From Gammaproteobacteria bacterium (lineage in GTDB: Bacteria; Pseudomonadota; Gammaproteobacteria; Steroidobacterales; Woeseiaceae), in NCBI GenBank assembly GCA_013151645.1, contig JAADHU010000009.1:1-63383 (forward strand): 63,383 nucleotides of DNA, read 5' to 3'. Under the pieces are notes generated by a model. That model was not told the DNA's origin, made no database searches, and worked only from the letters and a program-made list of their open reading frames with translations. Positions 8,848-14,477 of the stretch are shown piece after piece. Position 1 is the first letter of the stretch. Each line of letters starts with the position of its first letter. The position numbers and the translations under genes are program-made.

Positions 8848-9726
8848 TTAATCTTCAATCAATTCCAGTATTTCCATGGCACCCCGTATTGCATGTCGGG
8901 TACTCTTCGTCAGCGGCACAATCGGCAACCGGCAATTGTCTTCACAACGATCCAGCAGCGAAACCGCATATTTAATGCCGGCTGGACTCGGTTCATCAAA
9001 CAACGCCAGATGCAGCGGCATAAGCCGTTCCTGAATCGCAGCGGCGGTGGTGTAGTCTCCGTTCGTGCAAGCGTTCTGCAACCGGGAGCACAAAGCCGGC
9101 GCAACATTGGCGGTGACCGAAATACAACCGTTTCCGCCCGCGACGTTATAGGAAACCGCGGTGCCGTCCTCACCCGAGAGGAACACGAAGTCACCGTCGA
9201 TCAGCAATCTCTCACGAATCGGGCGAGTCAGATCGCCAGTCGCATCCTTAACACCGGCCACTCGGGGTAACGCTGCGATACGGGCCATGGTTTCGGGAGA
9301 AATGTCGACAATAGCCCGTGGGGGAATGTTGTAGACGATGATAGGTATGCTGCTCGCTTCATGCACGGCTTCAAAATGTCTGAACAATCCCTCTTGCGAG
9401 GGTCGGTTGTAATAACCGGCAACGTGCAGGGTGGCATCGGCACCGAGATCCTGAGCGCTCTCTCCGTAGAATATTGCCTCGCGGGTATTGTTCGAGCCGG
9501 CACCGGCGACGACGGGAAGTCGTCCGGCCGCTTCTTCTACCACCAGTTCGATAACCCGGCAGTGTTCCTTCTCCGTCAATGTTGCCGACTCTCCCGTGGT
9601 TCCGACCGCCACGATGCCGTGCGTGCCTTGTTCGATATGCCACCGGACCAGGCGTCGCAATGCGTCTTCGTCGAGTTCATCGTTGTGAAACGGCGTGATC
9701 AGTGCCACCAGTGATCCTGTTAACAT
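8848..9726 (-). CDS. dapA: 4-hydroxy-tetrahydrodipicolinate synthase
   Basis: Condenses pyruvate with aspartate semialdehyde, the first committed step of lysine and diaminopimelate synthesis, in the cytoplasm. A 292-residue TIM barrel of usual length. GTTGES (42-47) supplies the catalytic Thr44, YNIPPR supplies Tyr132 and Arg137, and GVKDATGD supplies the Schiff-base Lys160. The C-terminal FDEPSPAGIKY is also typical. On the minus strand dapD lies upstream, but a strong terminator and a short independent unit stand between them. Only about 40 bases separate the terminator from the dapA start, so its promoter is not obvious. Confidence 0.96.
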   Translation of the reverse strand: MLTGSLVALITPFHNDELDEDALRRLVRWHIEQGTHGIVAVGTTGESATLTEKEHCRVIELVVEEAAGRLPVVAGAGSNNTREAIFYGESAQDLGADATLHVAGYYNRPSQEGLFRHFEAVHEASSIPIIVYNIPPRAIVDISPETMARIAALPRVAGVKDATGDLTRPIRERLLIDGDFVFLSGEDGTAVSYNVAGGNGCISVTANVAPALCSRLQNACTNGDYTTAAAIQERLMPLHLALFDEPSPAGIKYAVSLLDRCEDNCRLPIVPLTKSTRHAIRGAMEILELIED

Positions 9727-9766
9727 CGTGTGCTCCAGTTATTGCCGAATTCGGCGGTGCGCGAAC

Positions 9767-9808
9767 AAAAAAAATCCCCGGTAGCTATTGCATGCTACCG
9801 GGGATTTT
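9767..9808 (-). terminator. Perfect 15-bp hairpin terminator between dapD and dapA
   Basis: AAAATCCCCGGTAGC (9771-9785) pairs perfectly with 9794-9808 around an eight-base loop. On the minus strand the stem is followed by a run of eight T (with 9767-9770), which makes a textbook intrinsic terminator for transcripts coming from dapD or from the small unit at 9838-9918. On the plus strand the T-run is short, so it works best leftward. Confidence 0.9.
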
Positions 9809-9837
9809 ATGAGTTGAGAGTGGATCTGGCCCGAATT

Positions 9838-9918
9838 TTACATGCGCAAACGTATATTCTCCGGTTTTTCCCCGGCCGGAAATGTTTTGGCAATGAGCTT
9901 GGGCGAGTAGGTGAACAT
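9838..9918 (-). CDS. 26-codon apparently leaderless reading frame (or small RNA)
   Basis: ATG at 9918 opens a 26-codon frame beginning MFTYSPKLIAKTFPAG and ending NIRLRM with TAA at 9838. A strong promoter (9925-9953) predicts a transcription start at or within a base of this ATG, so the message would be leaderless. A perfect terminator follows 30 bases after the stop, giving a transcript of about 150 nt. Three lysines and proline-containing turns are seen; there is no membrane segment. I do not recognise the peptide. The transcript may instead be a noncoding RNA, or a leader controlling dapA. Confidence 0.45.
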   Translation of the reverse strand: MFTYSPKLIAKTFPAGEKPENIRLRM

Positions 9919-9924
9919 GGCGCG

Positions 9925-9953
9925 ATTATGACGAGCCCCTGCGATTCCGTCAA
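9925..9953 (-). promoter_or_regulatory. Sigma-70 type promoter
   Basis: On the minus strand TTGACG (9953-9948) and CATAAT (9930-9925) are separated by exactly 17 bases, close to the sigma-70 consensus. The predicted start is near 9918-9919. It drives the small unit between dapD and dapA. Confidence 0.75.
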
Positions 9954-10001: not shown

Positions 10002-10817
10002 CTACCTGAGGAGGTCGTTCAAACTCGTTTTGGCACGCGTCCCGGCGTCGACTTGTTTCACAATGACAGCGCAGTAAAGCGAATGCGAACCGTCCTCGGA
10101 CGGCAGGCTACCGGACACGACCACCGACCCGGCGGGCACGCGGCCGTAGGTGATCTCCCCGGTGCTGCGGTTATATATCTTCGTGCTCTGGCCGATAAAG
10201 ACACCCATTGAAATAACCGAACCCTTTTCCACGATGACGCCTTCGACAATCTCGGAACGAGCGCCGATGAAACAATCATCTTCAATGATGGTTGGACCCG
10301 CCTGGACTGGTTCCAGTACGCCACCGATGCCGACGCCACCGGAGAGGTGCACATTTGCGCCGATTTGCGCACAGGTACCGACGGTCGCCCATGTATCCAC
10401 CAAGGTGCCGCTGTCCACGTAAGCGCCGACATTGATGTAGCTTGGCATGAGAACGACATTGGACGCGATGTACGCACCATAGCGAACCCTCGCATCCGGA
10501 ACCACGCGCACTCCTGCTGCCGCGAATTCTTCGTCGCCGAAACCGGAATATTTCAGCGGGACTTTATCGAAAAAGTTGCTGTCGGCACCCTTGATGACCT
10601 GACTGTCATTCACGTGAAAGCTCAGGAGTACGGCTTTCTTGAGCCATTGATTCACTTGCCATCCATCGTCGGATTGTTCGGCCATGCGCACGGTGCCGCT
10701 GTCGAGCAAGCCTATGGCGGTATTTATCGCCCTGACGAGATCCGCATCACCACGAATCCGGGTGCCGTTATTCTTTCGATCCCAGCCGTCGTTGATGGCG
10801 TCAATCAGTTCTTGCAA
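10002..10817 (-). CDS. dapD: 2,3,4,5-tetrahydropyridine-2,6-dicarboxylate N-succinyltransferase
   Basis: Transfers succinyl from succinyl-CoA to tetrahydrodipicolinate in the succinylase branch of lysine and diaminopimelate synthesis. At 271 residues it has the family length: a helical N-terminal domain, then a left-handed beta-helix of hexapeptide repeats (about 100-230; for example [18 protein letters not shown] and [13 protein letters not shown], then GCARS-like turns with [18 protein letters not shown]). The start is set at TTG 10817; no convincing Shine-Dalgarno is seen, so the exact start is uncertain. Divergent from dapB, with 218 bases between. dapC and dapE are not in the window. Confidence 0.95.
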
Positions 10818-11984: not shown

Positions 11985-14477
11985 GTGGCGGCGACACCCT
12001 GGAAAATACATAAATTTGGCGGCACGAGCCTCGCGGATGCGGAATGTTTCAAACGTGTTGCGCAGATTCTGAGCGACGCGCGAAATGACGAGACTGATGT
12101 CAGTCTTGGTGTGATCGTTTCGGCGATGGCCGGCATGACAGACAGCTTGCTTATGCTCGCGGTCCTGGCGGAAAGAGACGATAAGGGGTTTATCCGCGAG
12201 TTACAGGCCATTGGCCATCGTTATGCCGAAACCGCCCGACAACTTGTCGATGACGCTGCATTAGTCGCGGTGCTTGACGCATGGAGCGTCGATTCGACGG
12301 TGTTACAGGAAATGCTGGTCGGCATTGCGAGCGTCAAGTCGGCACCGCAGCGGGCACGGGATATGATTGCGGGATACGGCGAAATCTGGTCGGCCCGGTT
12401 ACTTGCTGCTTACCTGAGTCAGCGATTAGGAGCGAACGTTGCGGGCAGCTGGATTGACGCTCGGGACGTGCTGGTGGTTCGAACGGGCGAATTGGGGCCG
12501 ATCGTTCTCTGGGATGACTCGCAACGCAATCTGGTGCAGCGCAGGGCGCTGGATTATTCCGCCATTACCGTCATTACGGGCTTTATCGCGGCGGACGAAC
12601 AGGGCTTGCAGATGACGCTGGGCCGCAACGGCAGCGATCATTCCGCGGCGATATTCGCGGCTTTGTTCAAGGCGGACAGCTTAACGATCTGGACCGACGT
12701 GGACGGAGTTTTGAGCGGCGATCCCCGGCGGATCCCGGAGGCGCAGGTTATCAATGCGCTTACCTATGATGAAGCGATGGAATTAGCGTACTTCGGTGCC
12801 AGCGTCATCCACCCGCAGACCCTGGGTCCGGCGGTCGCGAACGACATTCCGATTCGTATTCGAAATACCTTTTCCCCGACGAAATCAGGCAGTCGCATCT
12901 CCCTCGACAATAAATCGAAGCGCAGTATCAAAGGTATTACCGCCATTGACGGAATGGCGCTGGTCAACCTCGAGGGTGCCGGCATGATCGGTGTGCCCGG
13001 TACCGCGGATCGATTGTTTGCCGCTCTGAAAGAGGCGGGCGTTTCGGTCACGCTCATTTCGCAGGCGAGTTCAGAGCATTCTATCTGCGTCGCAGTACCG
13101 GATGATCTTGCAGAACGTGCTCAGGCGGTGATTCAAGACGCCTTTGTGGCAGAACTCGACGATGGCCAGATTCAACGTGTCGATATCACAAAGTCGCAGA
13201 GCATCATTGCAGTGGTCGGCGACAATATGACTGGCCATCCCGGTATTGCGGCAAAGTTTTTTGGCACGCTTGGACAGGCGGGAATCAACGTTCGCGCGAT
13301 CGCCCAGGGTTCTTCAGAGCGCAATATTTCTGCGGTAGTCAATTCTGCCGATGCGACGCGGGCACTGCGTGCGGTTCACTCCGGTTTTTATCTTTCCGCA
13401 AAGACAATCTCGATTGGCTTGCTCGGGCCCGGAACGGTGGGTGCGGCGTTGCTGGAGCAGATTCGAGGCCGACGTGAATGGTTGCTTGAGCGCTTTAATC
13501 TGGATTTACGCATTCGCGCCATCGGCCGTTCAGAAACGATGCTTCTCGGCGGCCGCAGAGTCTCGCTGGACGATTGGCAGCAGCAGATGGAAGATGATGG
13601 TGTCCCAATGGATTTCGACGCCTTCGAACGCCATGTGCAGGCTGATCACCTGCCGCATGCGGTTATTATTGACTGCACCTCAAGCGATGACATCGCCGCA
13701 CGCTACGCTGATTGGCTTGCAAAAGGTATGCATGTCGTTACGCCCAACAAGAAAGCATTTAGCGGCTCCCAGGGCCGCTACCGGCAACTGCGAAAGAGCG
13801 CAAAACAGGGCAATGCACACTATTTCTATGAAACGACGGTCGGTGCCGCATTGCCCGTTATCTCGACATTGCGGAATCTGATTGATACCGGTGATCAGGT
13901 GCATTCAATCCAGGGTGTTTTGTCCGGTACGCTTGCCTACCTGTTCAACGCATACGATGGCACGACGCCGTTTTCGGAGATTGTTCGAGTGGCCCGTGAA
14001 AACGGCTATACCGAGCCGGATCCGCGCGATGATTTGTCGGGCATGGATGTGGCTCGCAAACTGACCATCCTCGCGCGGGAGCTGGGTCAGGACCTGGAAA
14101 TTGGTCGCTTTCCGGTTGAAAATCTGATTCCTGAGGAACTGCGCAACGTTGACGCCGCTCAGTTCATGGCAGACTTGCCGCGCCATGACGAACGGATGCG
14201 ATCGCTGTATGCCGAAGCGAAAGCGGAAGGCAAGGTGCTTCGCTATATCGCATCGTTGCAGGCCAGCGGGGAAGCGTCCGTGTCGTTACAAAAAGTCGCA
14301 CGGGACAACGCCATGGCACACATAAATCTGACGGACAATATTGTTCAGTTCAGTACAGAAAGGTATGCGGATAACCCGCTCGTCATCCAGGGGCCGGGGG
14401 CCGGTCCGGCCGTGACGGCAGGCGGTGTATTCGCGGATTTGCTTGGCTTGGCCAATCTCTTGGAAGGAACGAACTAA
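11985..14477 (+). CDS. thrA: Bifunctional aspartokinase / homoserine dehydrogenase
   Basis: An 830-residue fusion catalysing the first and third steps from aspartate to threonine and methionine. The kinase domain spans about 1-290, beginning with KFGGTSLADAECF, with the aspartate-binding LGRNGSDHSAA. Two ACT-type regulatory units span about 315-460 (VNLEGAGMIGVPGTADRLFA and SIIAVVGDNM). The homoserine dehydrogenase is about 470-825, with GLLGPGTVGAALLEQI and VVTPNKKAFSG. The length equals enteric ThrA/MetL. GTG 11985 is the start. A TATGAT box at 11943-11948 could be a -10 element but lacks a good -35. Threonine feedback is likely from family knowledge; methionine-type MetL cannot be excluded, but thrB and thrC follow directly. 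Confidence 0.95.
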   Translation: MAATPWKIHKFGGTSLADAECFKRVAQILSDARNDETDVSLGVIVSAMAGMTDSLLMLAVLAERDDKGFIRELQAIGHRYAETARQLVDDAALVAVLDAWSVDSTVLQEMLVGIASVKSAPQRARDMIAGYGEIWSARLLAAYLSQRLGANVAGSWIDARDVLVVRTGELGPIVLWDDSQRNLVQRRALDYSAITVITGFIAADEQGLQMTLGRNGSDHSAAIFAALFKADSLTIWTDVDGVLSGDPRRIPEAQVINALTYDEAMELAYFGASVIHPQTLGPAVANDIPIRIRNTFSPTKSGSRISLDNKSKRSIKGITAIDGMALVNLEGAGMIGVPGTADRLFAALKEAGVSVTLISQASSEHSICVAVPDDLAERAQAVIQDAFVAELDDGQIQRVDITKSQSIIAVVGDNMTGHPGIAAKFFGTLGQAGINVRAIAQGSSERNISAVVNSADATRALRAVHSGFYLSAKTISIGLLGPGTVGAALLEQIRGRREWLLERFNLDLRIRAIGRSETMLLGGRRVSLDDWQQQMEDDGVPMDFDAFERHVQADHLPHAVIIDCTSSDDIAARYADWLAKGMHVVTPNKKAFSGSQGRYRQLRKSAKQGNAHYFYETTVGAALPVISTLRNLIDTGDQVHSIQGVLSGTLAYLFNAYDGTTPFSEIVRVARENGYTEPDPRDDLSGMDVARKLTILARELGQDLEIGRFPVENLIPEELRNVDAAQFMADLPRHDERMRSLYAEAKAEGKVLRYIASLQASGEASVSLQKVARDNAMAHINLTDNIVQFSTERYADNPLVIQGPGAGPAVTAGGVFADLLGLANLLEGTN

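Follow-up and report, generated by a model that had tools for sequence, protein, structure and literature searches.

The dapD and dapA genes in the window (the whole stretch of 63,383 nucleotides analyzed here) are separated by a compact unit (9767-9953) on the minus strand, the strand of all features described below. The question raised by this locus is whether the unit is a gene in its own right or belongs to one of its neighbors. The original prediction described a leaderless small gene or sRNA; the leaderless start, the short frame, and the terminator gain support from comparison with related loci, but the independence of the unit is not, since it follows dapA and not dapD. The interval is probably the 5′ leader of dapA, acting as a ribosome-mediated transcription attenuator that encodes a leaderless peptide and probably senses lysyl-tRNA.

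Layout of the unit and its link to dapA

The promoter is of the sigma-70 type and agrees with the consensus at 10 of 12 positions. A promoter scan places the −35 box, TTGACG, at 9948..9953 and the −10 box, CATAAT, at 9925..9930, 17 bases apart; six further bases (CGCGCC) lead to an ATG at 9918. Transcription would start at the A of this codon or at an adjacent base. The frame (MFTYSPKLIAKTFPAGEKPENIRLRM, 9838..9918), predicted to be leaderless, extends over 26 codons from ATG 9918 to a stop at 9838. Its proposed control codon is the AAA of K18 (9865..9867), nine codons 5′ of the stop, a distance at which Lys is found in 15 of the 19 leaders. An in-frame hairpin is formed by TCCGG (9876..9880; columns 106-110 of alignment A6) and CCGGA (9860..9864), and its pair 109:123 covaries.

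An intrinsic terminator stands between the leader frame and the gene. Its hairpin (9771..9808), identified by terminator scan and by covariation, has 15 perfect pairs and a loop of eight, and the sequence continues into a run of eight T (9767..9774). A Shine-Dalgarno-like GGAG of dapA is visible by inspection at 9733..9736. The perfect palindrome GCCGAATTCGGC (9744-9755) lies between the terminator and this GGAG. By inspection, L042 has TCGCAAAATTTTGCGA in its place, and L043 and L044 have other hairpins at the corresponding position (GTTGC/GCAAC and GTTGGTG/CATCAAC), i.e., the hairpin is retained and the sequence changed.

Scanning of a 3,001-base region yields two promoter sites against a mean of 2.0 in shuffles, so that the promoter by itself is not above chance; the same scan yields four terminators against 3.2 in shuffles, and the hairpin of the window leader has 15 pairs. 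A combined unit was defined by a promoter with at least 9 of 12 matches, an ATG 4-9 bases after the −10 box, 10-60 codons, and a terminator of at least 8 bp. The window contains one such unit, and 20 shuffles that preserve dinucleotides contain none. The whole arrangement is not due to chance.

Promoters placed directly at a start codon are found elsewhere in the same genome, where the pattern TTGAC...A...T-N6-ATG occurs 12 times and its reversed form three times. These 12 sites (L072-L083), two of them in the window, fall on contigs C21, C24, C25, C38, C51, C53, C62, C66, C75, C78, and C82. Several of the 12 frames, from a reading of their sequences, presumably encode proteins resembling rubredoxin, aspartyl-tRNA synthetase, and ArsR-, CopG-, and BlaI-like proteins. 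Leaderless starts are therefore probably not rare in this genome, and to judge from such patterns, leaderless transcripts may be common in the lineage.

The neighboring genes are identified by NCBIfam equivalog models, none of which matches the leader peptide. The gene proposed to be controlled, dapA (8848..9726), encodes 4-hydroxy-tetrahydrodipicolinate synthase (TIGR00674, 308.5 bits with a cut-off of 206.15), and the upstream neighbor dapD (10002..10817) lies outside the unit (TIGR00965, 441 bits with a cut-off of 375.4). The apparent start codon of dapD is TTG, and the TIGR00965 match begins at residue 4. A fused aspartate kinase/homoserine dehydrogenase gene (11985-14477) adjoins dapB and is divergent from dapD.

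Comparison of gene order across 28 loci of the same dapA subfamily argues that the unit tracks dapA and not dapD, because dapD is near only three of the 28 subfamily genes within the fetched stretches (window, L003, and L004) and near only two of the 19 that bear the unit (window and L003). No dapD is found in the fetched stretch of L042, whose upstream gene matches Pfam Usp (91.3 bits) and encodes a universal stress protein. In L003 and L104, only 21 bases separate the end of the terminator hairpin from the start of dapA. This gap leaves no space for a separate promoter, and dapA must therefore be transcribed through the terminator, which is thus either conditional or leaky. A conditional terminator is preferred because the Lys codons are placed.

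Distribution and shared features of the leaders

The DapA subfamily of the window is present in 6 of the 107 genomes of its family (E ≤ 1e-85), and the unit is present at three of these six loci, i.e., the window, L042 (Woeseiaceae bacterium OFTM126; leader peptide MTGPSLELVAITFPAGNKPEVNRLRM), and L003 (leader peptide MSQAFAKRDKQLKPDNYRPDGVFVR). All three have TTGACG, 17 bases, a −10 box, six bases, and ATG. The near-consensus promoter, predicted leaderless ATG, 26-codon frame, and 15-bp terminator with T8 of the original prediction are present as described, and relatives show the promoter spacing, the start codon, the frame, and the terminator again. That prediction had staked itself on the frame and promoter being conserved in close relatives; they are, though the subfamily loci L004, L043, and L044 of the same family lack the unit.

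A search of the class (369 genomes) adds two further subfamily genes from more distant relatives, L087 and L088. Both are preceded by short Lys-rich frames (MFVFLATVAKKNKRCILCGDG and MFCNVPVKVKVKKRFLCGMARWFVAE, with AKKNKR and VKVKVKKR, respectively) and, directly 5′ of dapA, by a terminator with nine T. These frames share KR..LCG and have a leader; they may represent this control in its classical form. Among 115 relatives of a second genome, 17 more loci (L089-L105) were found, of which 15 satisfy the fixed leaderless-unit rule and one, L105, was added by hand (−35 box TTGCAT).

In total, the 28 subfamily loci comprise 19 with leaderless units, in two bacterial families, two with leadered Lys-rich frames, and seven with neither (L004, L043, L044, L059, L060, L061, and L095). 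L087 and L088 are kept outside the 19, as their frames do not begin at the promoter, and L056-L058, the same places as L042, L043, and L044, are counted once. The unit is absent from the three f5 loci (L059, L060, and L061) and from the 1,000 bases scanned upstream in L095. All three f5 loci carry a tRNA-Ser gene (anticodon GGA) upstream of dapA and in its orientation.

The fixed rule is satisfied by 18 of the 28 subfamily loci, plus L105 by hand, and by 0/31 other dapA loci. Adding an automatic terminator test gives 13/28 versus 0/31, although that test overlooks hairpins found otherwise (L087, L088, L096, and L097 among them). A locus is assigned to the subfamily here by the search that recovered it, which was either a comparison with the window DapA at a cut-off of E ≤ 1e-85 or 1e-95 or one further search. 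Among the 31 other loci are two Palleronia genes (L045 and L046) whose identity of 57% is as close as that of some of the 28 (L105, L088, and L099, 56-58%); moving them into the subfamily changes the comparison to 19/30 versus 0/29.

Searches with the leader itself return few convincing matches. The peptide matches 1 of 40 relatives, which is the window itself. With the two-row alignment A1, 8 of 296 order genomes match at E ≤ 0.05. The matches in the window and G274 alone are convincing, the other six matching over 10-21 residues, three of them with an internal stop. A DNA search of 99 relatives gives 15 matches at E ≤ 0.1, all short except the window itself. The covariance model R1, made from the three own-family leaders, was applied to family and order genomes, with f160 outside this set. 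It matches 8/107 family genomes at E ≤ 0.05 and 6/396 order genomes at E ≤ 0.005; of these 107 and 396 genomes, none but the three sources of the model exceeds 100 bits, and the weaker matches (at most 30.1 bits) resemble bare terminators.

The 19 leaders have a common plan. The −35 box is TTGACG in the window, L042, and L003, TTGACA in 15 of the 16 f160 units, and TTGCAT in L105. The distance from the −10 box to the start codon, the start site being predicted, is six bases in 12 leaders and 8-9 in the other seven. The frames encode 24-41 residues (25 in 10/19), and their stop codons fall at corresponding places in the alignment. Frame 0 is free of stops in all 19 by construction; the other two are open in 5/19 and 6/19. 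Aligned, the peptides have a Pro in 19/19, a Lys before it in 16/19, a Lys again five residues on in 17/19, and an Arg near the C-terminal end in 18/19.

Codons for the pathway product stand at a fixed place, as Lys is found nine codons 5′ of the stop in 15/19 leaders and 14 codons 5′ in 12/19. Lys makes up 73 of 517 leader residues (7/77 in the own family and 66/440 in f160) compared with 3.4% for the long frames in the window and 3.0% for the long frames in L089-L105, an enrichment of about fourfold. AAA accounts for 64 of the 73 Lys codons, and the three reading frames across the leaders contain 73, 23, and 37. The window leader has three Lys codons, one at nine codons from the stop (K18) and none at 14, with no Lys run; L042 has a single one. 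The two peptides share the C-terminal ...TFPAGxKPExxRLRM.

The comparison of the window with L042 separates constraint on the RNA from constraint on the peptide. At fourfold sites of dapA, 80/131 differ between the two. Identity amounts to 40/48 bases over the second half of the frame and to 19/36 over the first 12 codons, and conservation extends beyond the stop (TCGGGCCAGAT in both). In-frame differences number 7, 7, and 10 by codon position, with 4 synonymous and 10 non-synonymous codons; the 14 closest, overlapping leader pairs give 83, 112, and 125. No excess of synonymous changes is found in either comparison. The conserved bases past the stop and the 7/7/10 pattern therefore indicate constraint on nucleotides and not mainly on the peptide. 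In view of this codon-position pattern, conservation of the peptide for its own sake was rejected. Alignment had been proposed as a means to decide between a coding sequence and an sRNA, but it returns no strong third-position bias, together with paired RNA that covaries. That choice is a false one, because weak third-position bias with covarying pairs is what is expected of an attenuator leader.

Paired RNA, the proposed switch, and its alternatives

The alignment of the 19 leaders (A6) was made without structure. Changes on both sides are found in 13 of the 23 pairs of the in-frame hairpin and terminator, i.e., in 10/15 terminator pairs and 3/8 in-frame pairs. The covariation score is 0.237 versus 0.116, no shuffle of 500 reaches 0.237, and slid structures remain at or below 0.121, with two provisos: the comparison with shuffles can be inflated by relatedness, and a structure derived from the same sequences tends to outdo slid ones. 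The in-frame hairpin is the less regular, with pairing in 70.9% of cells, and roughly half of the leaders do not keep its three inner pairs. By inspection, a second in-frame hairpin follows the second Lys codon in L094, L096, L098, L100, L101, L102, and L105; its strands (GCAGT/ACTGC, GCAGG/CCTGC, and GCAGC/GCTGC) have changed and still match.

All 19 leaders have a hairpin between the frame and dapA. The T run has at least five T in 14/19, four in L096, and none in L100, L101, L102, and L105, which are perhaps decaying copies or under another mode of control. In L101, the frame end is also shifted.

The predicted antiterminator has two segments. Segment 1 (GCATGT, 9840..9845) lies at the end of the frame, overlaps the stop codon, and pairs in folding with GCATGC at the terminator loop (9790..9795). 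Segment 2 (TCGGG-CCA-GAT, 9824..9834) lies 3′ of the stop, is identical in L042 at 11/11 bases, and has ATCCCCGG in the 5′ arm of the terminator as its predicted partner. The frame end or stop codon has corresponding partners at the terminator loop in part of f160 (TGTAGG:CCTACA) and in L042 (TGTAAGT:GCTTGCG), as does the post-stop segment with the 5′ arm in L092 (AGGTTT:AAACCT).

Nascent transcripts without the terminator 3′ arm were folded with the ribosome A site at the control positions or at the stop. Upstream pairing of the terminator 5′ arm has a mean probability of 0.53 and 0.50 at the two control positions and of 0.08 at the stop, and the probability exceeds the stop value in 19/19 leaders at the first position and in 18/19 at the second (L003 being the exception); this contrast is partly trivial because a ribosome at the stop always covers the partner. 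Shuffled post-stop segments give a mean of 0.41 versus 0.50 for the native ones, and at most 5 of 60 shuffles are as high as native in only 6/19 leaders, the window included. Native upstream segments form 11.2 pairs, compared with 9.8 for segments exchanged between leaders (for L003, the exchange used the first and not the second control position) and 7.8 for shuffled ones. At most 10 of 200 shuffles are as high as native in 9/19 leaders, again including the window; in L094, L100, L101, L103, and L105, the native segment is no better than exchanged ones.

The helix at the stop codon scores 5.03 (3.80 shuffled, 4.15 exchanged) and the post-stop helix 3.99 (3.34 shuffled, 3.78 exchanged). The stop-codon helix is not seen in L094, L096, L098, L100, L101, L102, and L105, and in the window alone GCATGT:GCATGC is not significant (p 0.12). 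The folding thus predicts an antiterminator dependent on ribosome position, which the controls support in part. In the full window transcript, the terminator prevails whichever of the tested positions the ribosome occupies (P about 0.975), and the switch would therefore have to be kinetic. With no ribosome, the predicted antiterminator reaches 0.55 in the window and 0.04 in L042, which suggests that the protecting helix is weak in the window, unlike in L042.

According to the proposed mechanism, transcription would begin with the A of ATG 9918 or an adjacent base, and the leaderless message would be translated from its first codon. A ribosome that reaches the stop at 9838 would cover the last part of the frame and the bases immediately 3′ of the stop, whereupon the 15-bp hairpin with T8 would fold and RNA polymerase would halt, yielding a transcript of about 150 nt. 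A ribosome waiting at the Lys codon nine before the stop (in other members, also at the one 14 before) would leave the frame end and the post-stop segment free to pair with the terminator loop and 5′ arm. No terminator would then form, and dapA would be transcribed. The enzyme would be made only when translation of the peptide slows, plausibly from a shortage of lysine. Alternative pairing set by ribosome position is the logic of an amino-acid attenuator. A more specific formulation can be advanced only tentatively, namely a leaderless, lysine-sensing dapA attenuator with one or two placed Lys codons and with the stop codon within the antiterminator, such that a ribosome resting on that codon masks the switch directly. 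Its terminated product may in addition act in trans, as RNA or as peptide, in the manner of the Sinorhizobium trp system.

The principal alternative keeps the dapA attenuator and changes the signal to the general rate of translation, a codon for proline or arginine, or an arrest caused by the nascent peptide at its conserved K-P...R end. It draws on the constancy of Pro after the first control position (19/19, where Lys is found in 16/19) and of Arg near the end (18/19), as well as on the paucity of Lys codons in the window and L042 and their shared ...TFPAGxKPExxRLRM. However, Lys is the pathway product, is enriched about fourfold at fixed distances from the stop, and abounds in the leader peptides 5′ of dapA in L087 and L088, while the constancy of Pro and Arg may stem in part from RNA pairing in CCNG. 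A signal other than lysine is therefore unlikely, if still a serious contender. A metabolite-binding riboswitch, e.g., a lysine L box, would fit a structured leader and terminator 5′ of a lysine gene. It is highly improbable, as the Lysine riboswitch model (RF00168) has no match in the window at gathering or relaxed thresholds or in 10 related loci at gathering, and the candidate domain overlaps the shared reading frame. Apart from its terminator, the leader is more stable than shuffles in L042 only (z −3.55), with no such gain in the window (z +0.49) or in L003 (z −1.24).

A trans-acting sRNA made from the dapA leader would be consistent with the expected terminated product of about 150 nt, and the attenuator RNA rnTrpL of the Sinorhizobium meliloti trp operon is described in PMC7298713 as acting in trans; against it, cis pairing and control codons account for the conserved positions, and no Rfam family matches at its gathering threshold here or in 10 related loci, which makes this reading quite improbable. 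Very improbable as well is a free-standing leaderless small gene, with a peptide active in trans and with expression of dapA through leakage past the terminator. The frame is open to corresponding stops in the 19 leaders and ends in a short conserved C-terminal motif, but the codon-position counts (7/7/10 and 83/112/125) and the 4 synonymous versus 10 non-synonymous codons speak against conservation of the peptide body, nucleotide conservation runs past the stop, and strong R1 matches are confined to the three source genomes among 107 family and 396 order genomes. A chance promoter and frame before an ordinary dapD terminator would agree with a promoter score that alone is at chance level. The recurrence of the unit in 19 loci, 17 of them with no dapD in the fetched stretch, and the covariation of its hairpins refute this reading and leave it a negligible probability. 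The lysine-responsive dapA attenuator is thus retained as the probable explanation. If it is true, lysine synthesis too would be under ribosome-based control, and on leaderless messages, which differ from textbook attenuators in initiation and timing, and the 19 leaders would be natural variants for testing how few control codons are enough.

Relation to known attenuators

Enterobacterial leader-peptide attenuators have a ribosome-binding site 5′ of the leader frame and many control codons. The dapA leader has one or two placed Lys codons and a predicted leaderless start, and unlike in the enterobacterial systems, the region of the stop codon is itself predicted to lie inside the antiterminator. 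As far as these systems are described in PMC12925634 (thr) and PMC2659441 (leu and others), the thr, his, leu, ilv, and trp attenuators share with the dapA leader the codons for the pathway product, an alternative antiterminator, and an intrinsic terminator. The Rfam His_leader model (RF00514) matches the right strand weakly over its full length (23.5 bits with a gathering threshold of 49); the opposite strand scores a similar 23.4, which suggests the terminator as the source. The hairpin also gives sub-threshold matches to NsiR1 and MIR2629.

PMC12925634 describes the control of lysine synthesis in gammaproteobacteria in terms of the L-box riboswitch of lysC and, in Escherichia coli, the regulator ArgP. 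The L box likewise places lysine synthesis under control of a leader RNA; in contrast, the dapA leader has no RF00168 match and carries a reading frame in the place of the aptamer. No dapA leader-peptide attenuator was found among the titles and starts of abstracts listed in a literature search of open-licence papers, and the word dapA is absent from the main text of PMC2965389 and PMC2659441. The nearest case is SEP5 of S. meliloti, an sORF for a putative leader peptide that contains six Thr codons and three Lys codons and lies in the 5′-UTR of an aspartate dehydrogenase gene (PMC10117765). It differs in preceding a gene other than dapA, and its regulatory role is only suggested in that source.

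The original claim that the unit has no described counterpart was too strong. For dapA, none was found described, but a leaderless leader peptide in an attenuator is already known from Sinorhizobium trpL. In the S. meliloti trpLE(G) attenuator (trpL/rnTrpL/peTrpL), as described in PMC7298713 and PMC10117765, the transcript begins with the ATG of the leader peptide. The dapA leader, as proposed, would resemble this system in its start at the ATG, in a ribosome-dependent attenuator, and in a short terminated RNA. The S. meliloti attenuator responds to tryptophan through several consecutive Trp codons in a 14-aa peptide and belongs to the alphaproteobacteria, whereas the dapA leaders have spaced Lys codons in peptides of 24-41 aa and belong to the gammaproteobacteria.
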